This document shows positions 1-20,877 of a DNA stretch of 20,877 nucleotides, one piece after another. A program made the translations under genes and the position numbers. This stretch comes from a virus. The stretch spans positions 1 through 20,877 of the IMG/VR virus record IMGVR_UViG_3300032284_001188; one strand, given 5' to 3'. The notes below the pieces were generated by a model. It was not told the origin of the DNA, searched no databases, and saw nothing but the letters and a program-made list of their open reading frames with translations. Within the stretch, counting starts at the first letter, position 1, and every line of letters begins with the position of its first letter.

Positions 1-80
1 GTTTGTGCTGAACCACTAACTACTCCCGTTGGTAAATTAAGTATTGTTTGTGCTGAACCACTAACTACTCCCGTTGGTAA
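1..80 (-). repeat. 35-bp exact direct repeat with 45-bp period in the fibre gene
   Basis: Positions 1..35 and 46..80 are identical. Each encodes part of a LPTGVVSGSAQT module of 15 residues. Diverged relatives of the same module continue to about position 235. The array begins or continues beyond the left edge. Confidence 0.9.
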
Positions 81-1736
81 TTGTGCTGAACCACTCCATA
101 CTCCACTACCACCCAATACTTGTGATGAACCGGAAACTGTACCCGTTGGTAAGTTTGCTATGGTTTGTGCTGAACCCGATACAATCCCCGAAGGTAGTTG
201 TGCTGAACCACTCCATATACCTCTACCTTTTGTTTCATAAGACGATGTGGCCGTATTTAGTGCATTTACTGAAATATTTAAAGATGCAGTTGTAGTATTT
301 AAATTTGAAATAGATGTTACTAAACTTGCAGTTGATTGTGAAGCAGTAAATGTATTTAATGAACTTACTGATGTATTCAAACTTGCAGTTGTTGTATTCA
401 AATTTGTTATTGAAGTAACCAAACTTGCAGTTGAAACCGAAGCAGTAAAACTATTTAAATTACTAATAGAAGTTACAATTGATGCCGTAGTTACACTTGC
501 AGTAAATGTGTTTAAATTTGCTATTGAGGTAACTAAACTTGCAGTTGAAACCGAAGCAGTAAATGTATTCAAATTTGTTATTGAAGTAACCAAACTTGCA
601 GTTGAAACACTTGCAGTAAATGTATTTAAATTTGTTATTGAAGTAACCAAACTTGCAGTTGAAACACTTGCAGTAAATGTGTTCAACTTTGAAATAGATG
701 TTACAATAGATGCCGTAGTTACACTTGCAGTAAAAGTATTTAAATTTGTTATTGAAGTAACCAAACTTGCAGTTGAAACCGAAGCAGTAAATGTGTTTAA
801 ATTTGAAATAGATGTTACCAAACTTGCAGTTGAAACCGAAGCAGTAAATGTGTTTAAATTTGAAATAGATGTTACCAAACTTGCAGTTGAAACCGAAGCA
901 GTAAATGTGTTTAAATTTGAAATAGATGTAACTAAACTTGCAGTAGAAATACTTGCAGTATAACTATTAAATGATGATGTAGTTACTAAATTTGCAGATG
1001 AAGATATAATTCCTTTACCTGTTGTTTCATAACTTCCACTAACAAATCCGAAAGATGTAATTTGAGCAGAACCACTAATAGTTCCTGCTGGTATGGCTGC
1101 TGACGAACTTATAAATCCAAATGCAGTTATTTGTGCAGATGAACTTAATAAATTTGAAGGCAATGGTTGAACACTACCACTCAATGTATATCTTGTATCG
1201 TATGATGATGTTAATTGAGATGAAGAACTTATTGCTCCACTTAATGATGTCAAATATGAACCACTAACAAAACCTAATGATGTAATTTGTGCCGAAGAAC
1301 TAATTGTTCCCGCAGGTATTATTGTTGATGAACTTATAAATCCTAATGATGTAATTTGTGTTGACGAACTTACAATTCCACCTGGCTTTGATGCTATATT
1401 ATCCCAAGTTGTTTGAGTAATACTTCCACTTAATACATATCTTTGGTCAAATGAACTTGTTAATTGTGAAGAACCACTTATAGTTCCACTTGCAACCGAT
1501 GCCGTAAATGATGCGGTATAAGAATTGAAAGATGATGTAGATAATTTACCATCTAATGAACTACTTAATGCGTTGGTTACTAAATCGGTTGCAAATGTAG
1601 TATCTAATGAAGATGTTAATTGGTTTATAGAAATTTTATATGTTGTACTACCTGAAATACCAAGTACATATGTTGTATCTAATGATGCAGGACTTAATGC
1701 AGGTAGTTCCGATATTCTTTTACTTTTATTTGCCAT
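1..1736 (-). CDS. Repetitive Ser/Thr-rich tail fibre or adhesin, 3'-truncated by window edge
   Basis: The reading frame opens with ATG at 1736, one base after the stop of the upstream gene, and stays open for 578 codons to the left edge, so the C-terminus is missing. The first ~35 residues (KRISELPALSP..., TTYKISINQL) resemble the N-terminal attachment segment of many phage fibres. Residues ~75-255 are loose modules rich in SSAQITSLGF and SGSYLTSL motifs. Residues ~258-480 are eleven copies of a 19-residue unit (consensus TFTASVSTASLVTSISNLN). The last part contains WSGSAQLPTG/VVSGSAQT modules of about 15 residues. Composition is dominated by Ser, Thr, Ala, Val and Leu, with no Cys. Hydrophobic residues in the 19-mer are mostly spaced 3-4, which fits a trimeric shaft. 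A host-binding fibre or stalk is inferred from composition, repeats and its place after tail-completion genes. The receptor-binding tip would lie beyond the window. Confidence 0.72.
   Translation of the reverse strand, partial: MANKSKRISELPALSPASLDTTYVLGISGSTTYKISINQLTSSLDTTFATDLVTNALSSSLDGKLSTSSFNSYTASFTASVASGTISGSSQLTSSFDQRYVLSGSITQTTWDNIASKPGGIVSSSTQITSLGFISSSTIIPAGTISSSAQITSLGFVSGSYLTSLSGAISSSSQLTSSYDTRYTLSGSVQPLPSNLLSSSAQITAFGFISSSAAIPAGTISGSAQITSFGFVSGSYETTGKGIISSSANLVTTSSFNSYTASISTASLVTSISNLNTFTASVSTASLVTSISNLNTFTASVSTASLVTSISNLNTFTASVSTASLVTSITNLNTFTASVTTASIVTSISKLNTFTASVSTASLVTSITNLNTFTASVSTASLVTSITNLNTFTASVSTASLVTSIANLNTFTASVTTASIVTSISNLNSFTASVSTASLVTSITNLNTTTASLNTSVSSLNTFTASQSTASLVTSISNLNTTTASLNISVNALNTATSSYETKGRGIWSGSAQLPSGIVSGSAQTIANLPTGTVSGSSQVLGGSGVWSGSAQLPTGVVSGSAQTILNLPTGVVSGSAQ
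297..965 (-). repeat. Tandem array of eleven 57-bp units inside the fibre gene
   Basis: Units of exactly 57 bp (19 codons) begin at 965, 908, 851, 794, 737, 680, 623, 566, 509 and 452. After a 42-bp spacer unit (395..354) a further copy occupies 353..297. The units at 908 and 851 are identical over all 57 bp, and those at 680 and 623 differ at one base. Others differ mainly at synonymous positions, for example TCT ATT TCA against TCA ATA ACA, or GCT TCG against GCA AGT. Two units (737 and 509) share a variant encoding VTTASIVTSI. The array encodes the fibre shaft. Confidence 0.95.
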
Positions 1737-5503: not shown

Positions 5504-7114
5504 TTAAAGTGTTTCCATACCATCAACGACAATCTTACCGTAAAATTCTGGTCTTACGATTTTCTTAGCGTATCTAGTCATAACACCTCTTCTTGGAGTG
5601 AAGTTAGATGGGTCATAAACTAATGGAGTCATAATCAATGGTACATATGGTGCGTAAACTGCTCCTGTTTCGAAGAAGTTAGAACCTTTGAAACCTAATA
5701 AGATTACATTCTCTGTCATATATGGGTTTTTGTAAACATCATATCTGTTAGAGATTTGACCAATGTTAGTTACACCTGCTGCGAAAGTTAAAGAATCTTT
5801 ACCTGGGTTAGCAGAGAAACCATTCATTGATTCCAAAATAGTTGCAACATTTGGAGATACTACTACGAAGTTAGCACCACCTCTCATTGTTAACTGATGG
5901 ATTTTGTTAGATACCTTTTGTAATTTGATACCTAAAGTTTGAAACCAAGTGTTCTTTTGATATGCTGATGCAGCTGCTGCATTAGAATCAATTGAGAATC
6001 CACCACCATTCCACTCATATCCAACCTTTGCAGACCAGTATTCTTGTGTGAATGCGTTTTGTTGTAACATTTCTAAGATTTCTAAGTCGATTTCTAAAGA
6101 GATGTACTCAGACAACATTTGAGTTAACTCAGCCTCAGCATCAATGCTATGGTAAGCGTTCAAATCTTGTGCTAATTCCGGTGTCCAAATTGCTTTTAAC
6201 TTACGAGTTTTAGCAACAATTGGTTCTGATTTCAATTCTAATTCGATTTCAGGAATTGCTAAGTTGTTACCTCTATCTTCAAAATCACCTCTTGAAGTAG
6301 ATGTAGGTTGTACGTGGTATGCTAAAGATACTCCGTTTGCACCTGCAGAACCAGTACCAGTTACAGTTGAAACATATTCAATGTTGTTACCATTTTTAGT
6401 AGTGTACTGAGGGAACATTGTATAAGAACCAGATAATAAAGATGCTTCAAAAGCTCTTATACCATTAAAATCAGCGTCAGCTGGTAATGCTACTACAACT
6501 TTTTTCAAAGTATTAGCTGCATAAGATGCCGATAAAGTAGCGTTTGTTAAATCATAATCAAAATCAGCAATAGATGCTGAAGAAACTGTTGCAGTTGATA
6601 CAGCTGTAGCGTTATTGATTGTGTATCCAAATCTACCTGCACCATACAAACCACCTTCAGTTACTTGAGTTGAACCTAATTTGTTACCTGCTGGAGATAA
6701 AGAATCTTTACCAAAAGTACCACCATTACCGAATAAAGATGAACCTGTAAAATCTGGGTTACCTGCTGGGTTAGAACCATATTTGAAGTCCATATAGAAA
6801 ATAAGACCTGAAGGTAAGTTCATTGGTTGAACTGAAACGAATTCTTTAGCTGCGATAGAACCGAAGATTCTTCTTACTAAAGGTAACGCTACACCTGCCC
6901 ATTCTTCAGAACCTGCAGATACACCTGTACGAGTTGCCTCATCTAATAATTGTTTAGCTTGGTTTTCTAACATTACTGCCATACCGTGCTTAGTTGTTTC
7001 AGAACCTACTCCTTCAAGTAATCCTGTTTTTTCCCATTTGCCTTTCAAACCTCTTGTTTGCTCTAGCATAACGCTCTGTGGGTTAGCGCCTGTCATTAAT
7101 TTTTTAATGTCCAT
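5504..7114 (-). CDS. Major capsid protein, T4 gp23-like
   Basis: A 536-residue protein, close to T4 gp23 (521). It forms the hexameric capsid lattice. The N-terminus has MLEQTRGLKGKWEKTGLLEG and GMAVMLENQAKQLL, followed by WAGVALPLVRRIFG and LPSGLIFYMDFKYG, which are hallmark positions of gp23 relatives. The C-terminus ends RYAKKIVRPEFYGKIVVDG, also typical. A glycine/serine-rich stretch at ~120-260 probably corresponds to the inserted surface domain. The prohead protease of this family cuts after (I/L)xE, and LLE at 32-34 is a possible propeptide site; T4 cuts near residue 65. The start at 7114 lies 21 nt after the scaffold stop, preceded by an A-rich leader without Shine-Dalgarno. A strong terminator follows. 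Confidence 0.93.
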   Translation of the reverse strand: MDIKKLMTGANPQSVMLEQTRGLKGKWEKTGLLEGVGSETTKHGMAVMLENQAKQLLDEATRTGVSAGSEEWAGVALPLVRRIFGSIAAKEFVSVQPMNLPSGLIFYMDFKYGSNPAGNPDFTGSSLFGNGGTFGKDSLSPAGNKLGSTQVTEGGLYGAGRFGYTINNATAVSTATVSSASIADFDYDLTNATLSASYAANTLKKVVVALPADADFNGIRAFEASLLSGSYTMFPQYTTKNGNNIEYVSTVTGTGSAGANGVSLAYHVQPTSTSRGDFEDRGNNLAIPEIELELKSEPIVAKTRKLKAIWTPELAQDLNAYHSIDAEAELTQMLSEYISLEIDLEILEMLQQNAFTQEYWSAKVGYEWNGGGFSIDSNAAAASAYQKNTWFQTLGIKLQKVSNKIHQLTMRGGANFVVVSPNVATILESMNGFSANPGKDSLTFAAGVTNIGQISNRYDVYKNPYMTENVILLGFKGSNFFETGAVYAPYVPLIMTPLVYDPSNFTPRRGVMTRYAKKIVRPEFYGKIVVDGMETL

Positions 7115-7135: not shown

Positions 7136-8440
7136 TTATTTTAAAATACCTGCTAATTTTTTAAATCTGTCAGAAAAATCTGTATTCTCAGCAATTACTT
7201 GCTTAGCTTGTGCAGGTTTAGTAGACTTAGTCACTTTACTTGCGATTCCTTCTGTCATTGATTTTTTAGCCGTTTTAGTAATTGAAGTGTATTTGAAATT
7301 CTCTGCTAATGTAGAGTATACCAATTTAACTTCTCTTACTGAGTTTGTTCTATCTAAAGTTTCAATCACTTTCACTTTTTGTTCGTTAGTCATGTTGTGA
7401 GCTCTAAATAATTTATTAGCGAATAATAATTTTGCGTTTAACAAGTTTACTTCGTTAATTGTTGTTTGTAAAGATTTGATTACTTTGTAAGCTTCGTTTA
7501 ACTCTGCTTCTTTTTCATCTTCTTTTTTGTCTTCTTTGTCGTCAGTCATGTCTGCTTCCATTTCTCTTAAAATTTCTTCTAAGTCAATTACTTCATCCAT
7601 GCTGTCTTTGTCAAAAGAACCTCTTGGTGCTTTACCAGATGCTTTTGTTACATCTTGACCTTCTTTGTTCATTACAACTTTAGGGTCTTCGGATTTGTCA
7701 GTACCTGCATCAGAACCATCAGAATAAGATTCGTTTTTAGACTCTTCTTCTTCCTCTTCTTCTGATTCGTACATTGTACCTTCTTCCTCTTCTTCCTTTT
7801 CTTCAGAACCTGGCTCATTTAATTGAGCTTCTAATTCTCTGATGATAGCTTCTAAGTCCATATCATCTTCATTGTGTTCATCTGGTTCATCGTGGTGGTC
7901 ATAATTTGGTTCGGTTGGAGTTTCAGCACCAAATTCATCTTTTGATGGTTGCATGCTTCCTTCTTCTTCCTCTTCTTCCTCTTCTTCAGGATGGTATCCA
8001 AATTCCGCTAATTTTGCAGTCAATTCCGCAATCTTATGGTCTTTTTCATCACCCATTCCGAATTGGTCTTCCATACCTTCTTCTTCGTTGATATCAGCTA
8101 CTTTTTTGTAGTCTGTACCAGCTTGTTCAGGTTTACCACCATCTTTCTTTACACCTACTGATAAATCAGTATCTGCTTTGTAATTTGGTTGTGCACCTGG
8201 AGTTTTAGGATATCCTGCGTCTGTTTTAGACCCGATACCTGTTGAAATTAAATCCTCGTTCTTCATGTCTGCATCATCTTTTTCAGTTTCTTCAGCCTCT
8301 GCTTGCATTTTTTGTGCTAAGATAGATTGAAGTCTTGGAGTAAATGCTTCTTCAAGAGCAAGTTTTGCATTCGCTAACGCAGTTTCTTTAACAGCTTTAG
8401 CATCCGCAATCGCTTCTTTCAATAATTTTGAATTTGCCAT
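7136..8440 (-). CDS. Prohead core scaffolding protein, T4 gp22-like
   Basis: A 434-residue, very acidic protein that would form the internal core on which the capsid assembles and which the prohead protease then degrades. The N-terminal ~50 residues are helical (SKLLKEAIADAKAVKETALA). Two glutamate runs occur at ~152-160 and 213-233. An internal duplication pairs DLEAIIRELEAQL (196-208) with DLEEILREMEADM (286-298). The C-terminal part carries EVNLLNAKLLFANKLF and KVKVIETLDRTNSVREVKLV, the signature I associate with T4-like scaffolds. Many (L/I)xE sites are present, including LKE at 7-9. It sits directly before the capsid gene, as gp22 precedes gp23 in T4. Unlike nearly all neighbours it has a well-spaced AAGGA upstream. 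Confidence 0.85.
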   Translation of the reverse strand: MANSKLLKEAIADAKAVKETALANAKLALEEAFTPRLQSILAQKMQAEAEETEKDDADMKNEDLISTGIGSKTDAGYPKTPGAQPNYKADTDLSVGVKKDGGKPEQAGTDYKKVADINEEEGMEDQFGMGDEKDHKIAELTAKLAEFGYHPEEEEEEEEEGSMQPSKDEFGAETPTEPNYDHHDEPDEHNEDDMDLEAIIRELEAQLNEPGSEEKEEEEEGTMYESEEEEEEESKNESYSDGSDAGTDKSEDPKVVMNKEGQDVTKASGKAPRGSFDKDSMDEVIDLEEILREMEADMTDDKEDKKEDEKEAELNEAYKVIKSLQTTINEVNLLNAKLLFANKLFRAHNMTNEQKVKVIETLDRTNSVREVKLVYSTLAENFKYTSITKTAKKSMTEGIASKVTKSTKPAQAKQVIAENTDFSDRFKKLAGILK

Positions 8441-9187: not shown

Positions 9188-9601
9188 TTAATTTTGTTTT
9201 AATCCTAATCTTTGTTTCATAACATCTTCAGAAACATTTGCTATTTCAAAGTATCTTCCTAATACATGTCCCATATCTTCATATAATGCTTCCATTCTCT
9301 GTTGTTGAGCCTGTGCTTCTACTGCTTCTTTTTCAAAACCAGCTTGTAACTTTTTAAGTTCACCCATATTTCTTTTAATAGTCACTCTATCAAACCAATC
9401 ACCACCTTCTCTTAAAGTATATTCTTGTGCTGCGTCTGCAATTGCTCCTAATGTTTCTGCAATTTGGCGAATGTCAGACTTTCTACTCATACCTTCTCTA
9501 TGTTGACCATATGTGGATATAATTTCTAAAAAGTGTTTTTTTATATTCGATGGAAGTTGTTGTACATCTTCCTCATTCAATAAATCTTTTAACTTTATCA
9601 T
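9188..9601 (-). CDS. Small helical head-region protein, possible internal or core protein
   Basis: A 137-residue mostly helical protein without a known function. It opens MIKLKDLLNE, in which LNE (8-10) fits the (L/I)xE recognition pattern of T4-type prohead proteases. A charged helical stretch (KRNMGELKKLQAGFEKEAVE, then AQAQQQRMEALYEDMG) follows at ~75-112, compatible with a coiled coil. The neighbouring upstream gene is the prohead protease, 4 nt away. T4 keeps small core proteins (gp67, gp68) near its protease gene, so a core or internal-protein role is plausible. No sequence similarity to those is visible to me. Confidence 0.55.
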   Translation of the reverse strand: MIKLKDLLNEEDVQQLPSNIKKHFLEIISTYGQHREGMSRKSDIRQIAETLGAIADAAQEYTLREGGDWFDRVTIKRNMGELKKLQAGFEKEAVEAQAQQQRMEALYEDMGHVLGRYFEIANVSEDVMKQRLGLKQN

Positions 9602-9605
9602 ATTC

Positions 9606-10196
9606 TTAATTTAATTCTATTATAATTTCTCTCATTAAATCTTGTGACTTACACCATTTACCACATTCCTCTGCCATTTTTGCCCATTGTTTTGATTCTT
9701 GTAAAGGTGCCATAAATGCTCCATGTGTAGAAGGATTGGAAACAAAATCCCATCCAACTAATTCAAAATCATCTGCTACCATTACAGTACCATCTGATAA
9801 TTCTTTTACCGAACCCAATCCTCTAGATGAAATACCTAAACGAATATTATTCTTTAATAATTCTTTTAAGATATTTCCTGATGGTGTTGAAAGAATTTCT
9901 ACTACACCACACACATCATCACCATCCCAATAGATTTCTCTAATATTGTGTGATACATTTTTTAAATTGATAACAGGAGAATCTGGATGGTCTAATTCAC
10001 CCAATGCTCTTCTTTCTTTAATGAGTTGTTCGTATTTTTTACATTCTCTCATTAAAATTTCTTTTGGATATCTTCTATTATTTTGATTAGGTGCACCTGC
10101 TCTTTGCAAAATACCTTTAACTAAATAAGTTCCATTTTCTTCTTGTTGAAGTTTTGCTTCAAACAAATGGGTTTCTATCAATAATCCTTTATTCAT
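9606..10196 (-). CDS. Prohead core protease, T4 gp21-like
   Basis: A 196-residue serine protease of the herpesvirus-assemblin-like prohead protease superfamily. It digests the scaffold and trims capsid proteins before DNA packaging. Visible landmarks are APNQNNRRYPKEIL (34-47), GELDHPDSP with the candidate catalytic His70, NIRLGISSRGLGSV with candidate Ser123 or Ser124, and DFELVGWDFVSNPS (143-156) with acidic residues that could complete the active site. T4 gp21 is of similar size. N-terminal LIE (6-8) and LFE (11-13) could be self-cleavage sites. The start ATG at 10196 overlaps the stop of the EF-hand gene as TAATG. Together with scaffold and capsid genes downstream, the order follows T4 21-22-23. 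Confidence 0.88.
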   Translation of the reverse strand: MNKGLLIETHLFEAKLQQEENGTYLVKGILQRAGAPNQNNRRYPKEILMRECKKYEQLIKERRALGELDHPDSPVINLKNVSHNIREIYWDGDDVCGVVEILSTPSGNILKELLKNNIRLGISSRGLGSVKELSDGTVMVADDFELVGWDFVSNPSTHGAFMAPLQESKQWAKMAEECGKWCKSQDLMREIIIELN

Positions 10197-12419: not shown

Positions 12420-14162
12420 TTACTTTTTTGTTAAATCTTCTGTTAAAATAGTTTTTTTGTTTCCATTCATATCTTTAAATATTTCTTCATAGTTATTTCT
12501 TGGCTTATATTTTACAGAACCTTCTTTTTGTTTTAATGTTTTAATTCCCAATGGGTCGCGACCTTCAGGGTGGTCATCTTTACCATATCGGCTTGGGTCT
12601 TTTGGTCTACCTATTTGTCCACCTTCTTCTAATTCCGTATTAATTCTATTTATTTCTTCTTCTACATTTGTTGTTTCTTCGGTTCCTGTTGGTTTTGCTG
12701 GGTCAATACCTTGTGTTTCAATTGAAGTCAATCTAAAGTTTTGCTTAGTATCTTCTAATACTCCCAATGTTAACTCATCTTGCTCATCTTTTGCCATACC
12801 CATCACTGCCTCATACATCCATTCTTTAGAGAATAGTTTAGTTTGTTGCATTTGTGTAATCAATGTAACTTTAGATGAATACAATTCAACTTTTTCTTGT
12901 TCGTATATTTTAGATGGAATTGTTAACTCTAATGAGAAGTCTGTTAATCTATCATCGGTAATACCTTGTGCATATAAATGTACTATTGCAATTTTAGTCA
13001 ATTCTGAAATCAATACTCTTTGTACTCTTTCAATTGTTTTTGCAAATCTAACATCCATTGCTGCTAATGTTGCTTTACCATTTAAATCTTCGGAATATCC
13101 TAAAAATGCTTTTGGAATCTTTAATGATGCCATCAACTTATTTTTTAAATAATTGATATCATCAATCATATTATATTCCATACCTTTAATTGTATCGATA
13201 GATGTTCCATTATCGTTACCTCTAACTGGCATATAATAATCCTCAATTAAATTCATTACATTATATTTCAAATTGTAATCACCTGTTTTTTCATCAACAA
13301 ATGGAACTTTTTTAGAACTATTAATAATTTTTTGCATATAGTTATCAACCTCATTTGGTGGAATATTACCTACATCAATTTTAAATACTCTTTTTTCAGG
13401 AGCTCTCATAATACGATGAATCAACATTGCATCTTCCATTAAAGATAATTGTTTCCAAATTCTTCTACCACCTTCTACCATAGATTTTCCATAAGGTAAA
13501 AAGTTTGAATCTGAATTTAATCTAAAATGAGCCATCTCATAGTTTTCAAATTCTTTTTTTGCAGTTTGACCATATGAACCCAATGGATTCATGTATGGTG
13601 AATATATAAACTTTACTCTTTGAGGATTTAATGGGTCAAAGTTTTCCACTCTACTAATTTCATAAGGAGAGTATGGTGCAACATTTATAATACCTAATTG
13701 GTCTGCTATTTCTAAATGTAAATAAAAATCACCATATTTAACTAAATTTCTTGTCCATGGCCATAAGTTAAATTCTAAGTTTAAAATATCGTAAAATAAG
13801 TTTTCTAATACTTGCTTTATTTCATGGTCTGGATGATGAATTTTTAATACTTGTCCAAATTCATTTCTTGCAGTAGTCTCATCTGCATAGATATCTAATG
13901 CTGATGATAATATCGGGTCCATATCCATAGAATCGTAATCTCTAAATAAATCAATACGAACTTGTTGATATGCTAACGATGAATCAATTTGACCTGTTGC
14001 ATAATTTGTAACCTTTAATTTCATAAATCGGTCAACTAAATTTGTTGTCATATTTTGATACTCATCTGTATCTATGACTTTAGTTCCCTTTCCTGTTCTA
14101 CGAACAATAGTATTTGTTGAAAATAATTTCTGTAATCTACTAAATATTGTTTTGTCTGCCAT
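12420..14162 (-). CDS. Portal protein, T4 gp20-like
   Basis: A 580-residue protein (T4 gp20 is 524) that would form the dodecameric ring at one vertex, the channel for DNA and the seat of TerL. Characteristic stretches are MDMDPILSSALDIYADETT near 80, WTRNLVKYGDFYLHLEI near 136, YSPYEISRVEN, YGKSMVEGGRRIWKQLSLME, then HRIMRAPEKRVFKIDVGNIP near 252, and MASLKIPKAFLGYSEDLNG near 350 with ATLAAMDVRFAKTIERVQR after it. The order and spacing match gp20-type portals. The last ~90 residues are hydrophilic and Glu/Lys-rich with DPSRYGKDDHPEG, an extra tail compared with T4. It has an A/T-rich leader without Shine-Dalgarno and is followed by head-assembly genes, as in T4. Confidence 0.92.
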   Translation of the reverse strand: MADKTIFSRLQKLFSTNTIVRRTGKGTKVIDTDEYQNMTTNLVDRFMKLKVTNYATGQIDSSLAYQQVRIDLFRDYDSMDMDPILSSALDIYADETTARNEFGQVLKIHHPDHEIKQVLENLFYDILNLEFNLWPWTRNLVKYGDFYLHLEIADQLGIINVAPYSPYEISRVENFDPLNPQRVKFIYSPYMNPLGSYGQTAKKEFENYEMAHFRLNSDSNFLPYGKSMVEGGRRIWKQLSLMEDAMLIHRIMRAPEKRVFKIDVGNIPPNEVDNYMQKIINSSKKVPFVDEKTGDYNLKYNVMNLIEDYYMPVRGNDNGTSIDTIKGMEYNMIDDINYLKNKLMASLKIPKAFLGYSEDLNGKATLAAMDVRFAKTIERVQRVLISELTKIAIVHLYAQGITDDRLTDFSLELTIPSKIYEQEKVELYSSKVTLITQMQQTKLFSKEWMYEAVMGMAKDEQDELTLGVLEDTKQNFRLTSIETQGIDPAKPTGTEETTNVEEEINRINTELEEGGQIGRPKDPSRYGKDDHPEGRDPLGIKTLKQKEGSVKYKPRNNYEEIFKDMNGNKKTILTEDLTKK

Positions 14163-14222: not shown

Positions 14223-14822
14223 TTACCATTTTCTACAACTCCAGTAGTTTGCTTTTGTTCTAGGTCCTGGATTATCACAATGCATTCTTGCTCTAAAAGA
14301 TTTTCTAGCGGCAGGATTTGATTTTCTAATTTTCATTCCTTTTTGTCCAAAGTTTACTTTAATTATTTTTCCTGTTTTAGGATTTTTTACAAATACTTTA
14401 AATTTTTTAACATCACCTTGCATTGGATGTCCTAATTTTACTTCTCTTCCTTGATATTCTGCTTCATAAAGACATGGACAACCACCTTCATCTAATGTAT
14501 TTTTATATGCTTTTAAAAAATCAATAAAATCATCAATTTCTTCTGGTTCAACATCCAATTCATCATAATCATCATCATTACCCTCATACATACCACATTC
14601 GCATTGTTGTATTGGTTTACCACAATCTGGGCAAGTTTCTTCTCCTATTACACCACCCGCACCAAAGTATCCACCAGGTTCATTTGTAGAAGGAGTATCA
14701 CTTTCACTTATAGGAACACAATTTGGTACTTGTTTACCATTTTTGTTCTTCATTCCAATTTGTTTAAATCCTTTCCAACAAGGTGAATTTTCTTTTAGAG
14801 GTATTAAATTTATTAATTTCAT
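14223..14822 (-). CDS. Cys-rich conserved phage protein with C-terminal WSC-type module
   Basis: A 199-residue modular protein. The N-terminal ENSPCWKGFKQIGMKNKNGK (11-30) is a peptide I know from many T4-like phage proteins. CPDCGKPIQQCECG (64-77) offers four Cys in CxxC and CxC spacing, a plausible zinc site. An acidic stretch follows (82-100) before GGCPCLYEAEYQG. The C-terminus (KVFVKNPKTGKIIKVNFGQK, then SNPAARKSFRARMHCDNPGP and RTKANYWSCRKW) is a compact basic module with two Cys that recurs in environmental phages, sometimes attached to head proteins. LKE at 9-11 fits the prohead protease consensus. It sits between TerL and portal, where T4 has sheath and tube genes. The function is unknown. 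Confidence 0.7.
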   Translation of the reverse strand: MKLINLIPLKENSPCWKGFKQIGMKNKNGKQVPNCVPISESDTPSTNEPGGYFGAGGVIGEETCPDCGKPIQQCECGMYEGNDDDYDELDVEPEEIDDFIDFLKAYKNTLDEGGCPCLYEAEYQGREVKLGHPMQGDVKKFKVFVKNPKTGKIIKVNFGQKGMKIRKSNPAARKSFRARMHCDNPGPRTKANYWSCRKW

Positions 14823-14864: not shown

Positions 14865-16472
14865 TTATCCTAATAACCAAGTTAAATTTTCCTTTTCACC
14901 TCTACCCATATCCATTTCATATGGATTTGATTTTAAATGACCGGTTGATACAAATCCAGTATATTGACTTATTTGCGTTGAATTCAACATTGTCTTTGTC
15001 AAATCTATTCCTTCCTGTTTCAAACGAAGTGCTGTATTACGAACCCAGAGTCCAATTGCTAATGCCATTGTTAGGTCATCATTATAACCCTTCATTGCTT
15101 CTGCTCTACCATTATACCAAATAAATGTAAATAGTTCATCTATAAGTCTCTGAGAACGAATGAGGATGTCTTTACTATTTATGTATGTGTCTAATGTTGA
15201 AATAATAAGTGGTCTTGTCTTTGTTGTTGTTCCAAATCCTGCTACTAATTTCTTTTCGTCTCTATAAAACTTATTAGATACTTGTTTTTCAACATCTATA
15301 TATTTTAAGTCATTACTCATATAAAATAAATTACCATATGCTCTATCAATTACTTGTTGAATAGTTGCCCATCCTACATTTGAATTTTCTATAATTAATA
15401 GTGCGTTATTCCATTCCGTTGCAACTGCTACTAAAAAGTTTCCAAAATCTTTTGTTTCAATTTTGCCTCTATATTCTGCAACTTGCGAACTATCCTCAAT
15501 ATCAATTACTTGGAATGTTGAAAAGTCACTTCCATCACCTCTAGCGACATCGGCAACCACTATATATACTCTATTATAATTTGGATGTTCCCATTTCCAA
15601 TAGTTACCATCAAATCCACCTTTTTCAACCGGGTCCATTACATATGTGTCCTTATACCATGTTAATAATGCTGGGTCAATTACCGTATCACCTGAACCAA
15701 CAAAGTCACAATCACATTCCTGCGATGCTCCTTTGACTCCTAGTATACGAGTTTGTTCATCTCTCCATGCCTGATTTCTTTCTGGATGTTTTGTCCAATG
15801 TAAGTTTATATTATTAAATCCATTTGAACCACTTTCACCATCAACCCACATTTTATGAAACCAATTACCCACACCATTTGGAGTAGATAATACAATTGCA
15901 GCACCACCTGTTGATAAAGTTGATTGTGCTGATAACCAAATTTCATCAATATCTCTGATAAATGCTGCTTCATCCACAACTAATAAAGATAGGGCTTCCG
16001 AACGACCTGCGTCTGGAGAACTTGCGATTGCTTTTACTTGTGAACCATTTTTTAATTTAAGTGAAAGTTTGTTATCTTCTACTGAACTATTACCACCATC
16101 TCTTAACCAAATTGGTAGTAAGTCATGCATTACTCTAACCTTTTCAACTAAGTTTTTTGCTACTGTTACTTTTGTTGCGATTACTAACGCATTGAAGTCT
16201 TGGTTGAATAACATCTTCCAAAGAATAAATCCTGCAGATAAAGTCGATAATCCTAATTGACGAGATTTAAGAATAATGTTTAATCTATTTTGTTTAAAGT
16301 CAGTTAAACAATCTTCCTGGAATGGGAAAAGGTGAAAGGGTATTTTACCTCTCACCGGGTGTTGAATAACACAATATTTTTTCATAAAGTAAATGGGGTC
16401 TAATGCACATTTACGATATTCTTCATGTATTATTTCTTTTAATGTTTTCTTAGGTTGCCCTTGAACTCCCAT
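14865..16472 (-). CDS. Terminase large subunit, T4 gp17-like
   Basis: A 535-residue DNA-packaging motor: an ATPase that pumps DNA through the portal plus a nuclease that cuts the concatemer. The ATPase domain has a Walker A variant SRQLGLST (70-77), Walker B LLVVDEA (163-169, with Asp167/Glu168) and the coupling motif STPNG (196-200). The RNase H-like nuclease domain shows ADVARGDGSDFS (Asp308), LIIENSNVGWAT (Glu362) and YNDDLTMALA (Asp465/466), the expected three-acid set. T4 gp17 has 610 residues, and here the N-terminal extension before Walker A is shorter. The start ATG at 16472 overlaps the upstream stop as TAATG. Confidence 0.95.
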   Translation of the reverse strand: MGVQGQPKKTLKEIIHEEYRKCALDPIYFMKKYCVIQHPVRGKIPFHLFPFQEDCLTDFKQNRLNIILKSRQLGLSTLSAGFILWKMLFNQDFNALVIATKVTVAKNLVEKVRVMHDLLPIWLRDGGNSSVEDNKLSLKLKNGSQVKAIASSPDAGRSEALSLLVVDEAAFIRDIDEIWLSAQSTLSTGGAAIVLSTPNGVGNWFHKMWVDGESGSNGFNNINLHWTKHPERNQAWRDEQTRILGVKGASQECDCDFVGSGDTVIDPALLTWYKDTYVMDPVEKGGFDGNYWKWEHPNYNRVYIVVADVARGDGSDFSTFQVIDIEDSSQVAEYRGKIETKDFGNFLVAVATEWNNALLIIENSNVGWATIQQVIDRAYGNLFYMSNDLKYIDVEKQVSNKFYRDEKKLVAGFGTTTKTRPLIISTLDTYINSKDILIRSQRLIDELFTFIWYNGRAEAMKGYNDDLTMALAIGLWVRNTALRLKQEGIDLTKTMLNSTQISQYTGFVSTGHLKSNPYEMDMGRGEKENLTWLLG

Positions 16473-17111: not shown

Positions 17112-17780
17112 TTATTTTTTAATTAATTCTGGATGTTTAAATTCTATTAATTTTTCCTCTAATAATCTTTTTCTTTCTACTAATAATTCAATGGCTTCAT
17201 ACGCACCATCAATATCTTTTTTTAAATCAGTTTTTACTTTTTCAATATCTACTTCCCATGTCCATTTTTCAATTTTGCCATTTTCTGTGACAATTTCCAT
17301 TTGTTCCTTTATACCATTCAATGCTTCTTCCATTTTATCTTTGTAGTCTCTAATATAACTAAGTTTATTATTAGTTATCTTATAATCTTCATAAAATGGA
17401 AATGTTCCGTCTGCTCTCAATTTAGTTTCAAATTTAGCTAAACAAAATGTACACATTCCTGTTTTACTAATTAATTTTTTATCTGCCCAACTATATGGAA
17501 CCGTTTTACAATCTTCTGAAGAACAATGACTTAGTTTATGTAAGAAATCTCTAACATCATCCATTTCACTAACAACCGTCTTAAATCCCTTCTCTTGTCT
17601 CCATTCTTTACCATCCGTATCTATCCAAGTTTCACCAACTTTTCTTTTTTGTTCTGCTTCTTTTTCATAACCAAATGTTTTTTGATTATTATCTTCTCTT
17701 CCAAATACCGTATCTATAATCAATTTACGAGATTTGTGAATGTTTTTGTTTTTTTCGTCAAAACTTTTTCTTTTTGCCAT
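17112..17780 (-). CDS. Cys-pair protein two genes upstream of TerL
   Basis: A 222-residue basic, largely helical protein. A central HCSSEDCKT (Cys86, Cys91) and GMCTFCLAKFE (Cys110, Cys113) could form a four-Cys zinc site of treble-clef type. Upstream is GETWIDTDGKEWRQEKGFKT (49-68), a motif I recall from proteins near phage terminase genes. The C-terminal ~70 residues have long charged helices (DIDGAYEAIELLVERKRLLE) suited to oligomerisation. A small-terminase or packaging role is conceivable from location and fold pattern (zinc module plus coiled coil), but no terminase small subunit signature is evident. It starts 66 nt after the preceding gene, in a leader with TAAATTTG-like and TATATTATA-like elements. 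Confidence 0.6.
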   Translation of the reverse strand: MAKRKSFDEKNKNIHKSRKLIIDTVFGREDNNQKTFGYEKEAEQKRKVGETWIDTDGKEWRQEKGFKTVVSEMDDVRDFLHKLSHCSSEDCKTVPYSWADKKLISKTGMCTFCLAKFETKLRADGTFPFYEDYKITNNKLSYIRDYKDKMEEALNGIKEQMEIVTENGKIEKWTWEVDIEKVKTDLKKDIDGAYEAIELLVERKRLLEEKLIEFKHPELIKK

Positions 17781-17846: not shown

Positions 17847-20800
17847 TTACTTTCTTAAAGCTTGTTTTACCAATGATACTGCTAATTTTTTAACTCTTGT
17901 TTTATCATCATATTTTAATGCGGATTTAACTAAAATTAAATTTCCTGTTTCTGGATTTTTAATTTTTGTTTGTAATACTTTTTGGACATTTTTATTATTT
18001 TTAATATCCGATTTTTTAACTCCTTTATCTTTTGGTTTTGGTGTTAATTTTTGTTTTACAGGTATAATTTTTGTTTCTTTTGCTTTTTTAGCTACTTCTG
18101 CTTTTTTGGTTACTGCAACTATTTTAGCAAAAACATCTTTATCAAATTTAGGATATACTTGTTGAAATATTTTTTTCTTTTCAGGTATACTCAACATATT
18201 ACTACCAAATGTTGCTCTTAATTGAGTTCCACTAATATTTTTACCATCAACATTTAATTGCATTTCTGGTGCAACAATAAAATATCCTTCATCATTGTAT
18301 CCTTTCTTTTTATCATCAGGAACTTTGTTATAATTTTTAAAATATTTTCCACCCTTTTCTAATCTTTCTGCATCTTTTTGAGATACTGCCGTTACATATT
18401 TTGTATCATCTGGAACTTTTGATAAAATTTCTATCGGTTTGTATGGGTCTTTTACCTGAACTACATTTTTAGGAGGAATTCCAAACATTCTAGTCATAAT
18501 TTCCTTCTTATCTTTAAATGTGAATGGAGATTTGATTGGGTCTTGTACATTTGATGATGCTACATAAACATTATCTTTACCAAACTTCTCAACTAATGAT
18601 TTGTAAATACTATAATGTCCGGCATGAAATGGTTGAAAACGACCACTAAATATTGCAATGGTTTTTCCTTTACTTTCTTCTTTTGGTTGTTCGTTTCCTG
18701 CTACGGCTGCGGCTTCTTTCTTTTTAGGTTTGTCAAATTTAAAAGTTCCCTGTATTTGATTTATTGGTGCAAATAGGCCTGTGAATTTGTAAGGTTTTCC
18801 GTTGTACTGAAATACCACACCTTCCGATGGGACAATTTTATCCATTCCAATAGTTTCTAATCTTTCTAATTCAACTTGTAGTTTTGCAATTTTATCAACA
18901 TCTTTACTATCTTTGATTCCTTTTATAGATTGTAAAGTTTCTTTTGTTAAAGCATTTGCTGCTCCTGGATTATTAGATGATAAGAAATTGGTTACTCTTT
19001 TTAACGATTGAGCACCTGCATTTAAAAATACATGCTCAATTGGTTTAATCATTTGTTTTTGTGCTTTTGCTAATTGGTTTGTTTCAAAATCTCTAAACCA
19101 ATTTCTTTGTACATCTTCTTCAAAATTTTTTACTCCAAATGATTTATCACCATCTGCAAATCTATTAACCAATCCTTTTTTTTGTGATGGAGAAAATTTA
19201 ATACCTAATTTATTTTCTTGGTTATTTATTTCATTCTCCCACCATGCTCTACGATAATCTCCTAATTTAGCTTTATCAGATAAACCAAATTTACCAGCAG
19301 TTGCAGTTAGTGTTGAATTAAATTCTTTTGCTTTTTGTGCATACTCTTTTGCGTCTGCATCACTAAATGCTATTGTCTTGGGCCCTTCAATACCAAATGT
19401 TTTTTGTCTATCTGCTCCGACTTTTTTAACTGCTTCTGCAAATTCTTTACCATCTTCAGTTGAACGCTCTATTTGTTCTCCGTTTTTATCATATGTAATT
19501 GTTCCATGCATTACCAATACAGTTTTTCCGTAAGGTATTACATTTTGTGTTTCTGGCAATATAATTTCTAAACTCATAAATTTAGAACCATTACCAAACA
19601 TTTTTTTAATTTGTTGTGGTGATAGTTTTTTAACTGCTGCTTGCAAATCTTCGGATGCTCCTACAAATGCTTTTTCAATTCCACCTCTACCTTTAAACTG
19701 ATTGTATATTCCTTTTGTATCTAATGCATTTTTACCACTATCTCTAACATGTCCTTTATTTCTACCAAATACCACTTTACCATCTCTCACACTAAATGCA
19801 ATATTTTGTCCATCTAATTTTTCACTAACAGGTGCTTCTTTATCCAATCCTCCAATAAGGCCTCTGTTAATCATTTCTTTCATATCGTTAAAAGTCAAAT
19901 CTTCATCTTCAAATGGGTGTGCTAAGTGTCCTGCTGCTCCACCTTCTAATAGTAACCCTTCTGTGTATATTTGTTTATTTATCTTACCATAGTTTCTCAT
20001 TAAGATACCTGCAACTGCGTTTGCTTGATTTTCTATTGAAGAACCCGTTTTACCATTTTCTGCTGGATTGGTAAGTAAATTTAATTCGTCTTGTTTTCTA
20101 TGTACCAATTCGTGTGCAATGGTTCTTAAAATATCTGCCGAAAGTCTATTGTTTGTTACAACTACGATTTCTTTTGTTTCAGGATTATAGCCACCTAATG
20201 ATGCGTGTTTGTTTGCATAATCCGTATCGTTTATTAAATGGATTTTTGGTTGTTTTTTTAATTTTAATTTTGAAACTGCGTAATTTATAAAATCATTTAT
20301 ATTTTTAACTTTTAAATCCGATACTTCTTTTTCTTCTCTTAAATTTCTTAAAACTTTAGTTCTATTTTCATAATAATGTAAATCTTTAGCTATATTATTT
20401 TTTGCAATTTCAACTGCCAATCTTGCATCATTTGTTACTCCAATTTCTTGTTGTGCACCAAATGCTATTTTATTTTTTAATTCTTCGACAGATACATTAT
20501 TTACATTTGCCAACGATTCTATACTATGATTTCCGGATTGAATTCCATACATTTGAAATACTCCGGGAGCTCCTTCGTGAAATTCCTGATATGGTGCTTC
20601 TGGTGTGTATGTTTTATCCATAAATAAATGTGGAGAAACTTCCCACTTTTCTATTGCATGTTGTTTGTATTCTTCACCTTTAATATCATGTACCCATATT
20701 TTAGCGGGCCCGTTTTCGTAATTATGATTGTTTACAGGTACTGCTATTTTTGTTGCTGAATCAGGATAACTATCACTTAAATGTCCTTGTACATTCCAAC

Positions 20801-20877
20801 CCGGAAGATGGCTAACATAATTATAACTATCAAATTGAGCCCAGTCTTTATTTACATAGTTTACATAATTTTGTGGA
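17847..20877 (-). CDS. Multidomain protease-like / ligase-like / NMN-adenylyltransferase-like protein, 5'-truncated by window edge
   Basis: The frame is open from 20877 to the stop at 17847, at least 1009 residues. Numbers below count from the Met at 20621, which is probably internal because 85 further codons upstream (including LPGWNVQGHLSDS and IEKWEVSPHLF) are open and protein-like. Domain 1 (~105-215) has HELVH (170-174) and a downstream Glu197 in IENQANA, a gluzincin-like zinc pattern. Domain 2 (~225-620) has EKLDG (267-271, candidate nucleotidyl-lysine), FMSLEI (348-353), EGVVF (600-604) and KPYKFTG, in the order of motifs I, III, IV and V of ATP-dependent ligases and capping-type enzymes. 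Domain 3 (~653-805) has GRFQPFHAGH (660-669) and ISGTQLR (796-802), hallmarks of NMN adenylyltransferases. A Lys-rich tail ends with KNPETGNLILVKSALKYDD. Substrates are unknown; RNA or NAD chemistry is inferred. Confidence 0.85.
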   Translation of the reverse strand, partial: PQNYVNYVNKDWAQFDSYNYVSHLPGWNVQGHLSDSYPDSATKIAVPVNNHNYENGPAKIWVHDIKGEEYKQHAIEKWEVSPHLFMDKTYTPEAPYQEFHEGAPGVFQMYGIQSGNHSIESLANVNNVSVEELKNKIAFGAQQEIGVTNDARLAVEIAKNNIAKDLHYYENRTKVLRNLREEKEVSDLKVKNINDFINYAVSKLKLKKQPKIHLINDTDYANKHASLGGYNPETKEIVVVTNNRLSADILRTIAHELVHRKQDELNLLTNPAENGKTGSSIENQANAVAGILMRNYGKINKQIYTEGLLLEGGAAGHLAHPFEDEDLTFNDMKEMINRGLIGGLDKEAPVSEKLDGQNIAFSVRDGKVVFGRNKGHVRDSGKNALDTKGIYNQFKGRGGIEKAFVGASEDLQAAVKKLSPQQIKKMFGNGSKFMSLEIILPETQNVIPYGKTVLVMHGTITYDKNGEQIERSTEDGKEFAEAVKKVGADRQKTFGIEGPKTIAFSDADAKEYAQKAKEFNSTLTATAGKFGLSDKAKLGDYRRAWWENEINNQENKLGIKFSPSQKKGLVNRFADGDKSFGVKNFEEDVQRNWFRDFETNQLAKAQKQMIKPIEHVFLNAGAQSLKRVTNFLSSNNPGAANALTKETLQSIKGIKDSKDVDKIAKLQVELERLETIGMDKIVPSEGVVFQYNGKPYKFTGLFAPINQIQGTFKFDKPKKKEAAAVAGNEQPKEESKGKTIAIFSGRFQPFHAGHYSIYKSLVEKFGKDNVYVASSNVQDPIKSPFTFKDKKEIMTRMFGIPPKNVVQVKDPYKPIEILSKVPDDTKYVTAVSQKDAERLEKGGKYFKNYNKVPDDKKKGYNDEGYFIVAPEMQLNVDGKNISGTQLRATFGSNMLSIPEKKKIFQQVYPKFDKDVFAKIVAVTKKAEVAKKAKETKIIPVKQKLTPKPKDKGVKKSDIKNNKNVQKVLQTKIKNPETGNLILVKSALKYDDKTRVKKLAVSLVKQALRK

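Follow-up and report, generated by a model that had tools for sequence, protein, structure and literature searches.

A late-gene polyprotein of T4-like viruses with zincin, RNA-ligase-like and NMNAT-like domains, predicted to be cut and packaged in the phage head

The window analyzed here, the whole 20,877-nucleotide stretch of the IMG/VR virus record IMGVR_UViG_3300032284_001188, contains the open frame P0001, in which three domains follow one another: a zincin, a covalent nucleotidyltransferase of RNA-ligase-like type (LIG) and a HIGH nucleotidyltransferase of NMNAT type (NT) (Table 1). P0001 lacks its 5' end, which lies beyond the end of the contig; read from an ATG start, it has 924 aa, and Lys353 of the numbering used here is Lys268 in that shorter form. 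The original prediction had recognized the same three domains, and all three identities were upheld, whereas its idea that the metalloprotease releases the parts by self-cleavage was not. The best explanation, to which we assign a probability of roughly 50%, is that P0001 is a late, head-packaged polyprotein that would be cut by a gp21-type protease and would deliver a bifunctional RNA-repair enzyme at injection. The family is found in many uncultured T4-like viruses of bacteria.

Table 1. Features of P0001 and of neighboring genes, in positions of the window
Feature	Residues (aa)	Positions	Strand	Remark
Whole ORF P0001	1009 aa	17847..20876	-	5'-truncated by contig end
N-terminal variable part	1-178	20343..20876	-	incomplete
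LRE	179-181	20334..20342	-	candidate prohead-protease site right before zincin
Zincin (HExxH...E), metallopeptidase-type domain	179-311	19944..20342	-	
Zincin HELVH	255-259	20100..20114	-	
Zincin ENQAN	282-286	20019..20033	-	Glu282, candidate third zinc ligand
LLE, then GG	309-311	19944..19952	-	candidate prohead-protease site, zincin/LIG junction
LIG, RNA-ligase-like covalent nucleotidyltransferase domain	312-714	18735..19943	-	
LIG motif I EKLDG	352-356	19809..19823	-	Lys353, candidate nucleotidyl acceptor
LIG motif Ia GRNKG		19752..19766	-	Arg372
LIG motif III FMSLE		19566..19580	-	Glu437
LIG helical insert, about 160 aa	509-676	18849..19352	-	between motifs III and IV; model secondary structure
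LIG motif IV EGVVF	685-689	18810..18824	-	Glu685
LIG motif V YKFTG	696-700	18777..18791	-	Lys697
NT, HIGH-superfamily nucleotidyltransferase, NMNAT-like	738-929	18090..18665	-	
NT GRFQPFHAGH	745-754	18615..18644	-	HxGH motif
NT C-terminal motif ISGTQLR	881-887	18216..18236	-	
C-terminal tail module KNPETGxxI..SAL.Y		17850..17987	-	present in 16 LIG ORFs
Next gene of cluster, conserved		17112..17780	-	
Large terminase (gp17-like)		14865..16472	-	
Prohead protease (gp21-like, Peptidase_S77)		9606..10196	-	proposed processing enzyme

The ligase-type lysine that had been postulated for this ORF is supported by the sequences of the family, as motif I (KxDG) is present in 149 of 149 complete domains. 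Motifs Ia, III, IV and V follow in order with their catalytic R, E, E and K in all 71 non-redundant (NR90) sequences and in 149/149 in total, and each of the 149 complete relatives retains the eight catalytic residues tested; loss of catalytic residues, which had been named as an argument against a ligase, was found in no relative examined. The motif originally read as KPYK has to be corrected to YK[FLY]TG, with one invariant Lys. One scan for relatives used motif I or motif IV patterns as bait; of the 584 relatives confirmed by it, the best 80 were used, and the invariance of these two motifs in the pattern-baited loci is therefore partly built in. However, the catalytic residues are also kept in all 62 relatives from two scans without such bait (23/23 and 39/39), the second of which contributed the best 80 of 146 relatives. 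The counts leave out the window itself (L026), L113, L114, a short piece of L019 and the ORFs without a complete LIG (8/157). The family is common: one viral scan gave 600 pattern stretches, and at least 584 of these were confirmed. In profile searches, no Pfam, NCBIfam or PHROGs model covers the domain, and Pfam RNA_ligase (PF09414) matches at motif I only, below cut-off; nevertheless, LIG forms a conserved family in which the motif residues are invariant.

By its predicted fold, LIG belongs among the RNA ligases. The fold prediction and structure search that had been suggested for P0001 resulted in a ligase-like AF2 model (pLDDT 87.2), and in the PDB fold search with model residues 1-414 the ligase rows were RNA ligases with Z 8.0-9.5, of which values near 9 exceed, though not by far, the range of 7-8 that the search tool calls common. 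The best ligase folds were the Naegleria RNA ligase NgrRnl (Rnl5 type; 6vt3, Z 9.5, rmsd 3.9, 186 aligned) and the fungal tRNA ligase Trl1 (6n67, Z 9.0, rmsd 5.0, 209 aligned), of which the nucleotidyltransferase domain alone aligns, with an identity of 11-13%. T4 Rnl1 was also matched (5tt6, Z 8.6, rmsd 4.1, 187 aligned; Foldseek with 2c5u, E 2.6e-3). DNA ligases are found lower in the Foldseek list (3qwu at rank 29, 6wbo at rank 50), and the substrate of LIG could therefore be DNA instead of RNA.

With the T4 Rnl1 family, LIG shares, besides the fold match, KxDG of motif I, E-I-[IV]-x-P of motif III, EG of motif IV and the Lys of motif V. In a profile comparison with a nine-sequence phage Rnl1-type alignment, in which three of the nine sequences have no simple KxDG match in our script, a match with a probability of 52.9 and E 1.4e-4 was obtained that is confined to 50 columns at motif III, whereas six decoys stayed at 0.1-1.1. 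Single-sequence comparisons of this kind with phage RNA ligases were weak, the nine-sequence alignment being the only one that gave a signal, and the LIG alignment found nothing but a chance match (E 0.22) among the sequences of solved structures. Unlike T4 Rnl1, LIG has the long helical insert, a conserved GHxxHP[FY] N-terminus and a fusion to NT, and is encoded by a late head-operon gene.

The NT domain of the window combines HIGH-superfamily fold matches with both GRFQPFHxGH and SGTxxR, and it matches Pfam CTP_transf_like (PF01467, E 2.1e-7) and the archaeal NMNAT 1ej2 (E 5e-6). In many relatives, GPHH replaces HxGH. As NT scores below the NadM equivalog cut-offs (TIGR01527, 26.2 versus 181.2 bits; PRK01153.1, 27.6 versus 127), it was not filed as NadM. 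Homologues of NT include the “cytidyltransferases” of cyanophages, with 520 phage records matched. Of 51 five-prime-complete NR90 ORFs, 50 carry LIG and NT in one polypeptide, in one or the other order (NT first in 33 of the 50), and the one unfused ORF has NT in the next gene, which supports the functional coupling of both enzymes that had been claimed. Searches of open-licence PMC papers, by listings and passages, gave no report of such a fusion and no paper on Mel-JY01, a phage whose homologue is WWT39297. Four NR90 ORFs additionally contain a CCA-adding enzyme (three with the order CCA-NT-LIG, and L127; E 5.5e-32 to the CCA-adding enzyme 1miv), and three contain a P-loop kinase. Because relatives add these enzymes, RNA repair is favored among the functions that the original prediction had offered. 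The LIG gene has terminase, portal and prohead-protease genes as neighbors, and the terminase gene follows shortly downstream in 39 of 42 loci.

In case of the zincin, zincin-type metal-hydrolase chains top both fold searches with the AF2 model (pLDDT 90.1), led by 1oz9 (Z 9.9), which we take to be a YbeY-family hydrolase; 7y7o and 1xm5 carry the name YbeY in the list. HExxH...E is a peptidase pattern, and Pfam Peptidase_M78 gave E 0.0082 on the whole ORF, which is below cut-off, and E 0.0013 on the fragment. Given the YbeY-like top match of the model, the zincin may have a nuclease role. HE[LM]VH and EN[QE]A[NH] are present in 61/61 ORFs examined, but these are the 61 of 80 zincin loci that passed the filter HE[LMIA][VAIT]H, and the filter therefore accounts in part for the constancy of HExxH, though it did not ask for the downstream ENxA. 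DUF6267, another candidate family, was dropped, being absent from the Pfam matches listed. Self-cleavage by the zincin as the main release step was rejected because most relatives lack this domain (present in only 14 of 71 NR90 ORFs) and because the junctions bear consensus sites that suit the phage's own prohead protease.

A new finding at the level of sequence is that domain starts are marked by [LI]xE, the consensus of the T4 prohead protease. This motif lies close to the start of LIG in 61 of 71 cases, of the zincin in 14 of 14 and of the kinase in 3 of 3, whereas 14.7% of random linker windows contain it. The control motif [LI]xD is found at the LIG start in 3/71, and neither [LI]xD nor [LI]xN precedes zincin and kinase in this way. 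In front of NT, [LI]xE occurs in only 26/56, in front of the CCA domains in 0/4, and it is absent at the LIG junction of L028; other junction variants are MLE and SNI (1/71 each). In Mel-JY01, the junction reads IIAE followed by GGLGGHMNHP. In the NT-first members, cleavage ahead of LIG would part it from NT, and therefore only the architecture of the window is expected to give a stable product with both activities.

Mechanistically, the P0001 polyprotein would be incorporated into the prohead core, where the gp21-type protease would cleave after Glu181 and Glu311 to give free zincin and free LIG-NT in the head, and both would enter the cell together with the DNA, by analogy to T4 Alt and the internal proteins. 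LIG would then load AMP on Lys353, activate RNA 5'-phosphates and reseal RNA, most likely tRNA, that host defence ribonucleases have cleaved, before phage gene expression begins, while the CCA-adding enzyme or kinase of relatives would serve end repair. NT would produce an adenylated dinucleotide that is needed or spared by the ligase step, with NAD+ from NMN as best guess, and this is the weakest step of the proposed mechanism. In the known phage RNA repair by T4 Pnkp and Rnl1, the enzymes are produced after infection. A head-carried ligase would act ahead of any phage gene expression and would explain how a phage can meet defence ribonucleases at time zero. The [LI]xE rule yields exact predicted cut sites, and the NT-ligase fusion offers a route to the role of the many cyanophage “cytidyltransferases”. 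A more specific version of the head-diced repair kit, which we regard as improbable, has the ligase fed by NAD+ or an NT-made adenylate, with NT remaking NAD+ from released NMN and ATP; if true, repair would persist in cells with NAD+-depleting or tRNA-cutting defences.

What alternatives exist for such a packaged repair enzyme? P0001 could be the product of an ordinary late gene that is neither packaged nor cut, with [LI]xE before LIG as a mere structural strand. This is unlikely. In its favor, LLM (12/71) or LLC (1/71) replaces the consensus at LIG junctions with otherwise similar flanks, and M or C instead of Glu at these 13 junctions speaks against cleavage there. Leaders that carry [LI]xE at the N-terminus show only moderate enrichment (30 of 38 relatives versus 216 of 458 control ORFs, the N-terminus of the window being missing), and this modest effect would also fit an ordinary gene. 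What argues against it is that [LI]xE also precedes the unrelated zincin and kinase domains, and that the control motifs are not placed like this. A virion-delivered, Alt-like modifier that nucleotidylates (AMPylates) a phage or host protein would agree with the head-gene context, and Alt is described in the available text of PMC9026906 as a packaged nucleotide-transfer enzyme. But the fold matches of LIG are polynucleotide ligases, and its partners act on RNA, which makes such a modifier highly improbable.

The other alternatives center on NT. Restoration of NAD+ against NAD-depleting defences, with NT making NAD+ from NMN and LIG being secondary, would fit the nearness of NT to archaeal NMNAT, and phages with NadM/NadR-type NAD salvage exist (PMC9503650, as far as available). 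This option of the original prediction is disfavored, and we consider it improbable, because NadV (PF04095) is missing from 22 of the 23 family records, 20 of which are IMG/VR contigs and perhaps fragments. It is absent also from Mel-JY01 (190 kb, titled complete) and LR756508 (484 kb), and the sole positive record, LR756500, encodes NT and LIG in two different genes; in contrast, all NadM phages also have NadV according to the accessible part of PMC9503650. Moreover, NAD+ restoration leaves the conserved fusion to LIG unexplained, and GPHH in many NT domains argues against it. The phage NAD-salvage enzymes, such as natV of KVP40, do share the NMNAT-type domain, but they fuse it to Nudix or kinase domains (PMC9503650, same part), whereas the P0001 family fuses it to a ligase. 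RNA 5' capping, in which LIG or NT would add App-, NAD- or NMN-type caps to phage or host RNA, appears very unlikely. In the portion of PMC8131947 available, RNA ligases are named among potential A-pp-RNA capping enzymes and capping by NMNAT is termed “not proved”; LIG and NT are tightly coupled. However, the late-operon position does not suit capping, the CCA and kinase partners suggest end repair, and no capping partner was found among the ORFs scanned.

The position of P0001 beside packaging genes had been taken as a hint at packaging, and from the head-gene context we infer the same, which suggests a packaged protein. T4 Alt and the internal proteins resemble the P0001 family in head-gene context, [LI]xE sites and leaders, those of relatives being CTS-like, but they are other enzymes, and for the P0001 family cleavage and packaging are predicted. 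The T4 capsid-targeting leader is processed at residues 8 and 10 (PMC9026906, available part). All four cyanophage NT homologues that were read start with M-K-x-F-x-x-F-x-x-E followed by A and resemble this T4 leader. A cyanophage cytidylyltransferase was detected in purified virions, with the caution of the S-CREM2 authors that their protein may have been co-purified (PMC10665884, text available in part). A leader common to LIG and further head proteins encoded on these contigs was considered and finds no evidence, because the module leaderLTEW occurs in 6 LIG ORFs and 0 other ORFs; CWKG is confined to other ORFs. Like P0001, phage polyvalent proteins are multidomain, contain a zincin peptidase and are thought to be processed and injected, but the accessible part of PMC5512222 describes no NT-ligase core, and no link of its 2H domains to RNA ligases is reported there. 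Within the N-terminal variable part of P0001, aa 118-171 resemble a DUF5661-like module of the relative L007.

The 20,877-base window holds a T4-like head cluster on the minus strand, and the fusion named in the original prediction stands: a single frame carries, in this order, a HExxH...E domain (zincin), a covalent nucleotidyltransferase domain with ligase motifs (LIG) and an NMNAT-like nucleotidyltransferase domain of the HIGH superfamily (NT). A small conserved gene lies between the LIG ORF and the terminase in nearly all loci; the family search gave zero matches above cut-off for its product, and small terminase is a guess.

Genes of the window and domains of the LIG-bearing ORF
Feature	Position	Strand	Remark
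Tail-fibre-like ORF	3-1736	-	incomplete; numerous NLNTFTASVSTASLVTSIS-type repeats
gp23	5504-7114	-	
Prohead protease gp21	9606-10196	-	
Portal gp20	12420-14162	-	
Large terminase	14865-16472	-	
Small conserved gene	17112-17780	-	
LIG-bearing ORF	17847-20876	-	5' end missing at contig end
Zincin	aa 179-311 of ORF 17847-20876		HELVH...ENQAN
LIG	aa 312-714 of ORF 17847-20876		ligase motifs
NT	aa 738-929 of ORF 17847-20876		NMNAT-like

In Pfam, NCBIfam and PHROGs, no model covers LIG, weak matches aside: PHROG_562 (Rnl1; E 0.0044) in one relative (L024), and PF09414, under cut-off, in another (L074) as well as in four records where it falls on motif I of the LIG ORF. The ligase fold expected for this domain was nevertheless recovered in an AlphaFold model of aa 310-929 (alignment of 68 relatives; pLDDT 87.2, pTM 0.63), for which the best ligase-part matches are RNA ligases, namely Naegleria Rnl (Z 9.5, rmsd 3.9, 186 aligned), Trl1 (Z 9.0, 5.0, 209) and T4 Rnl1 (Z 8.6, 4.1, 187). 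Foldseek E-values are modest (T4 Rnl1 2.6e-3). Compared as profiles, LIG and a set of nine Rnl1-type phage ligases match with a probability of 52.9 (E 1.4e-4), against 0.1-1.1 for six decoys. The model places a helical insert of ~160 aa between motifs III and IV. The residues that define covalent nucleotidyltransferases (motif I K, D and G; motif Ia R; motif III E; motif IV E and G; motif V K) are all retained in 149/149 complete LIG domains, so that the catalytic set persists in relatives as anticipated; part of these domains came from a scan baited with motif I or IV, and the set is also intact in the 23/23 and 39/39 from scans with other baits.

By motif and predicted fold, aa 179-311 is a zincin and a putative peptidase (model from 45 sequences, pLDDT 90.1). 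PprI/IrrE and abylysin are among its top Foldseek rows, and its VIA rows are headed by 1oz9 (Z 9.9, rmsd 3.0, 109 aligned), with aminopeptidases (Z 8-9) and YbeY also leading.

NT is nearest by sequence to archaeal NMNAT (E 5e-6), and its score is far under the NCBI NadM cut-offs. Our non-redundant set (NR90) comprises 71 ORFs with complete LIG, drawn from several scans, two of which kept the best 80 of 584 and 80 of 146 relatives. Among its 51 five-prime-complete ORFs, 50 contain both NT and LIG, with NT N-terminal in 33, C-terminal in 16 and on both sides in 1; in the sole unfused case (L029), a HIGH-type NT ends the next gene. The two domain orders and the adjacent-gene case argue for a functional coupling of NT and LIG. 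As the HxGH motif varies across 63 NTs (GRFQPFHAGH in 19, GRFQPFGPHH in 11, no match in 5), the NT substrate may differ among relatives. Further partners recur in the 71 ORFs: NT-zincin-LIG in 10, CCA-NT-LIG, kinase-NT-LIG and zincin-LIG-NT in 3 each, and NT-zincin-CCA-LIG in 1. The CCA domain was recognised by PF01743 (E 2.8e-31 and 1.5e-29) and by its similarity to the CCA-adding enzyme 1miv (E 5.5e-32), and the kinase is AAA_33/Zeta-like by family match. Phage RNA-repair parts include CCA-adding enzymes, kinases and ATP-grasp ligases (PMC7824862).

Where the sequence extends far enough, a terminase follows downstream on the same strand in 39 of 42 non-redundant loci, at a distance of 860-3328 bases, and a portal in 28/31. 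The T4 prohead-protease (gp21) consensus [LI]xE occurs exactly at the LIG junction in 56/71 ORFs and, at -12 to +2 of domain starts, before 61/71 LIG, 14/14 zincin and 3/3 kinase domains, less regularly before NT (26/56) and never before CCA (0/4), versus 14.7% of random linker windows. Its density per residue is 1.37% in linkers versus 0.57% in domain interiors. Control motifs at the LIG start are rarer ([LI]xD 3, [LI]xN 5, [LI]xK 8, [VMF]xE 14 of 71), except [LI]xxE (52/71), which a leucine-rich stretch ahead of the same Glu would predict. The window protein has five [LI]xE, at 181 (before zincin), 311 (before LIG) and 442, 763 and 899 (inside LIG or NT). Against cleavage, however, the junction reads LLM in 12 and LLC in 1 of the 71 ORFs, and against both packaging and cleavage, the leader enrichment is modest (30/38 versus 216/458 controls).

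The window's gp23 contains QLLDE|ATRTG (| marks the candidate cut position), and [LI]xE also lies near the N-termini of head-cluster proteins at 5504-7114, 7136-8440, 9188-9601, 9606-10196 and 14223-14822 (e.g. MIKLKDLLNE|E, MANSKLLKE|A, MNKGLLIE|T, MKLINLIPLKE|N), in line with processing of several head proteins, gp23 included, by a gp21-type protease.

In cyanophage S-SRM01, a stand-alone zincin adjoins a 'cytidyltransferase', matched in 520 phage records, that starts MKNFHQFITE|A; three more cyanophage NT homologues start MKSFLNFFSE|A, MKKFSDFLTE|A and MKLFNQFFKE|A. The four (L195:6563-7882, L209, L210, L211) thus open with M-K-x-F-x-x-F-x-x-E|A, a T4-type capsid-targeting leader. In T4 IPIII, the first ten residues are enough to target the protein, and processing is read at residues 8 and 10 (PMC9026906). 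Two other papers report an S-CREM2 cytidylyltransferase found by mass spectrometry in CsCl-purified virions, where the authors caution about co-purification (PMC10665884), and describe polyvalent virion-embedded proteins with zincin domains as a theme (PMC5512222).

The domain identities and the LIG-NT coupling are well supported, whereas head packaging and protease cleavage of the putative polyprotein are suggested only by pattern. The LIG-bearing polyprotein would be packaged in the phage head and processed by the gp21-type protease; LIG-NT, in some phages with a CCA enzyme or kinase, would then enter at injection and mend RNA that host defences cut. A role of the NT in NAD restoration is less likely, because NadV was found in only 1 of 23 records (20 of them IMG/VR contigs that may be fragments), and there NT and LIG are separate genes. 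Each part of the putative polyprotein belongs to a known kind. Our search of open-licence papers returned no account of the conserved NT-ligase core, its head-operon place or the protease-site layout.

A single 1786-aa ORF (L127:646-6003) combines NT, a zinc-ribbon-like segment, zincin, a CCA-adding enzyme and LIG. A zinc-ribbon-like module, CxKCG...CHKCG, and KNPxTGxxIxVxSALxY recur in variable polyprotein parts, namely the N-terminal parts of two loci (L007, L005) and the C-terminal tails of 16 LIG ORFs. In the zincin-baited scan, a second family (L153-L191, e.g. L153:1996-4128), in which LIG is absent, joins NT and zincin to a DxDG phosphatase-like segment reading DMDGVLVDF, behind a short leader with [LI]xE.
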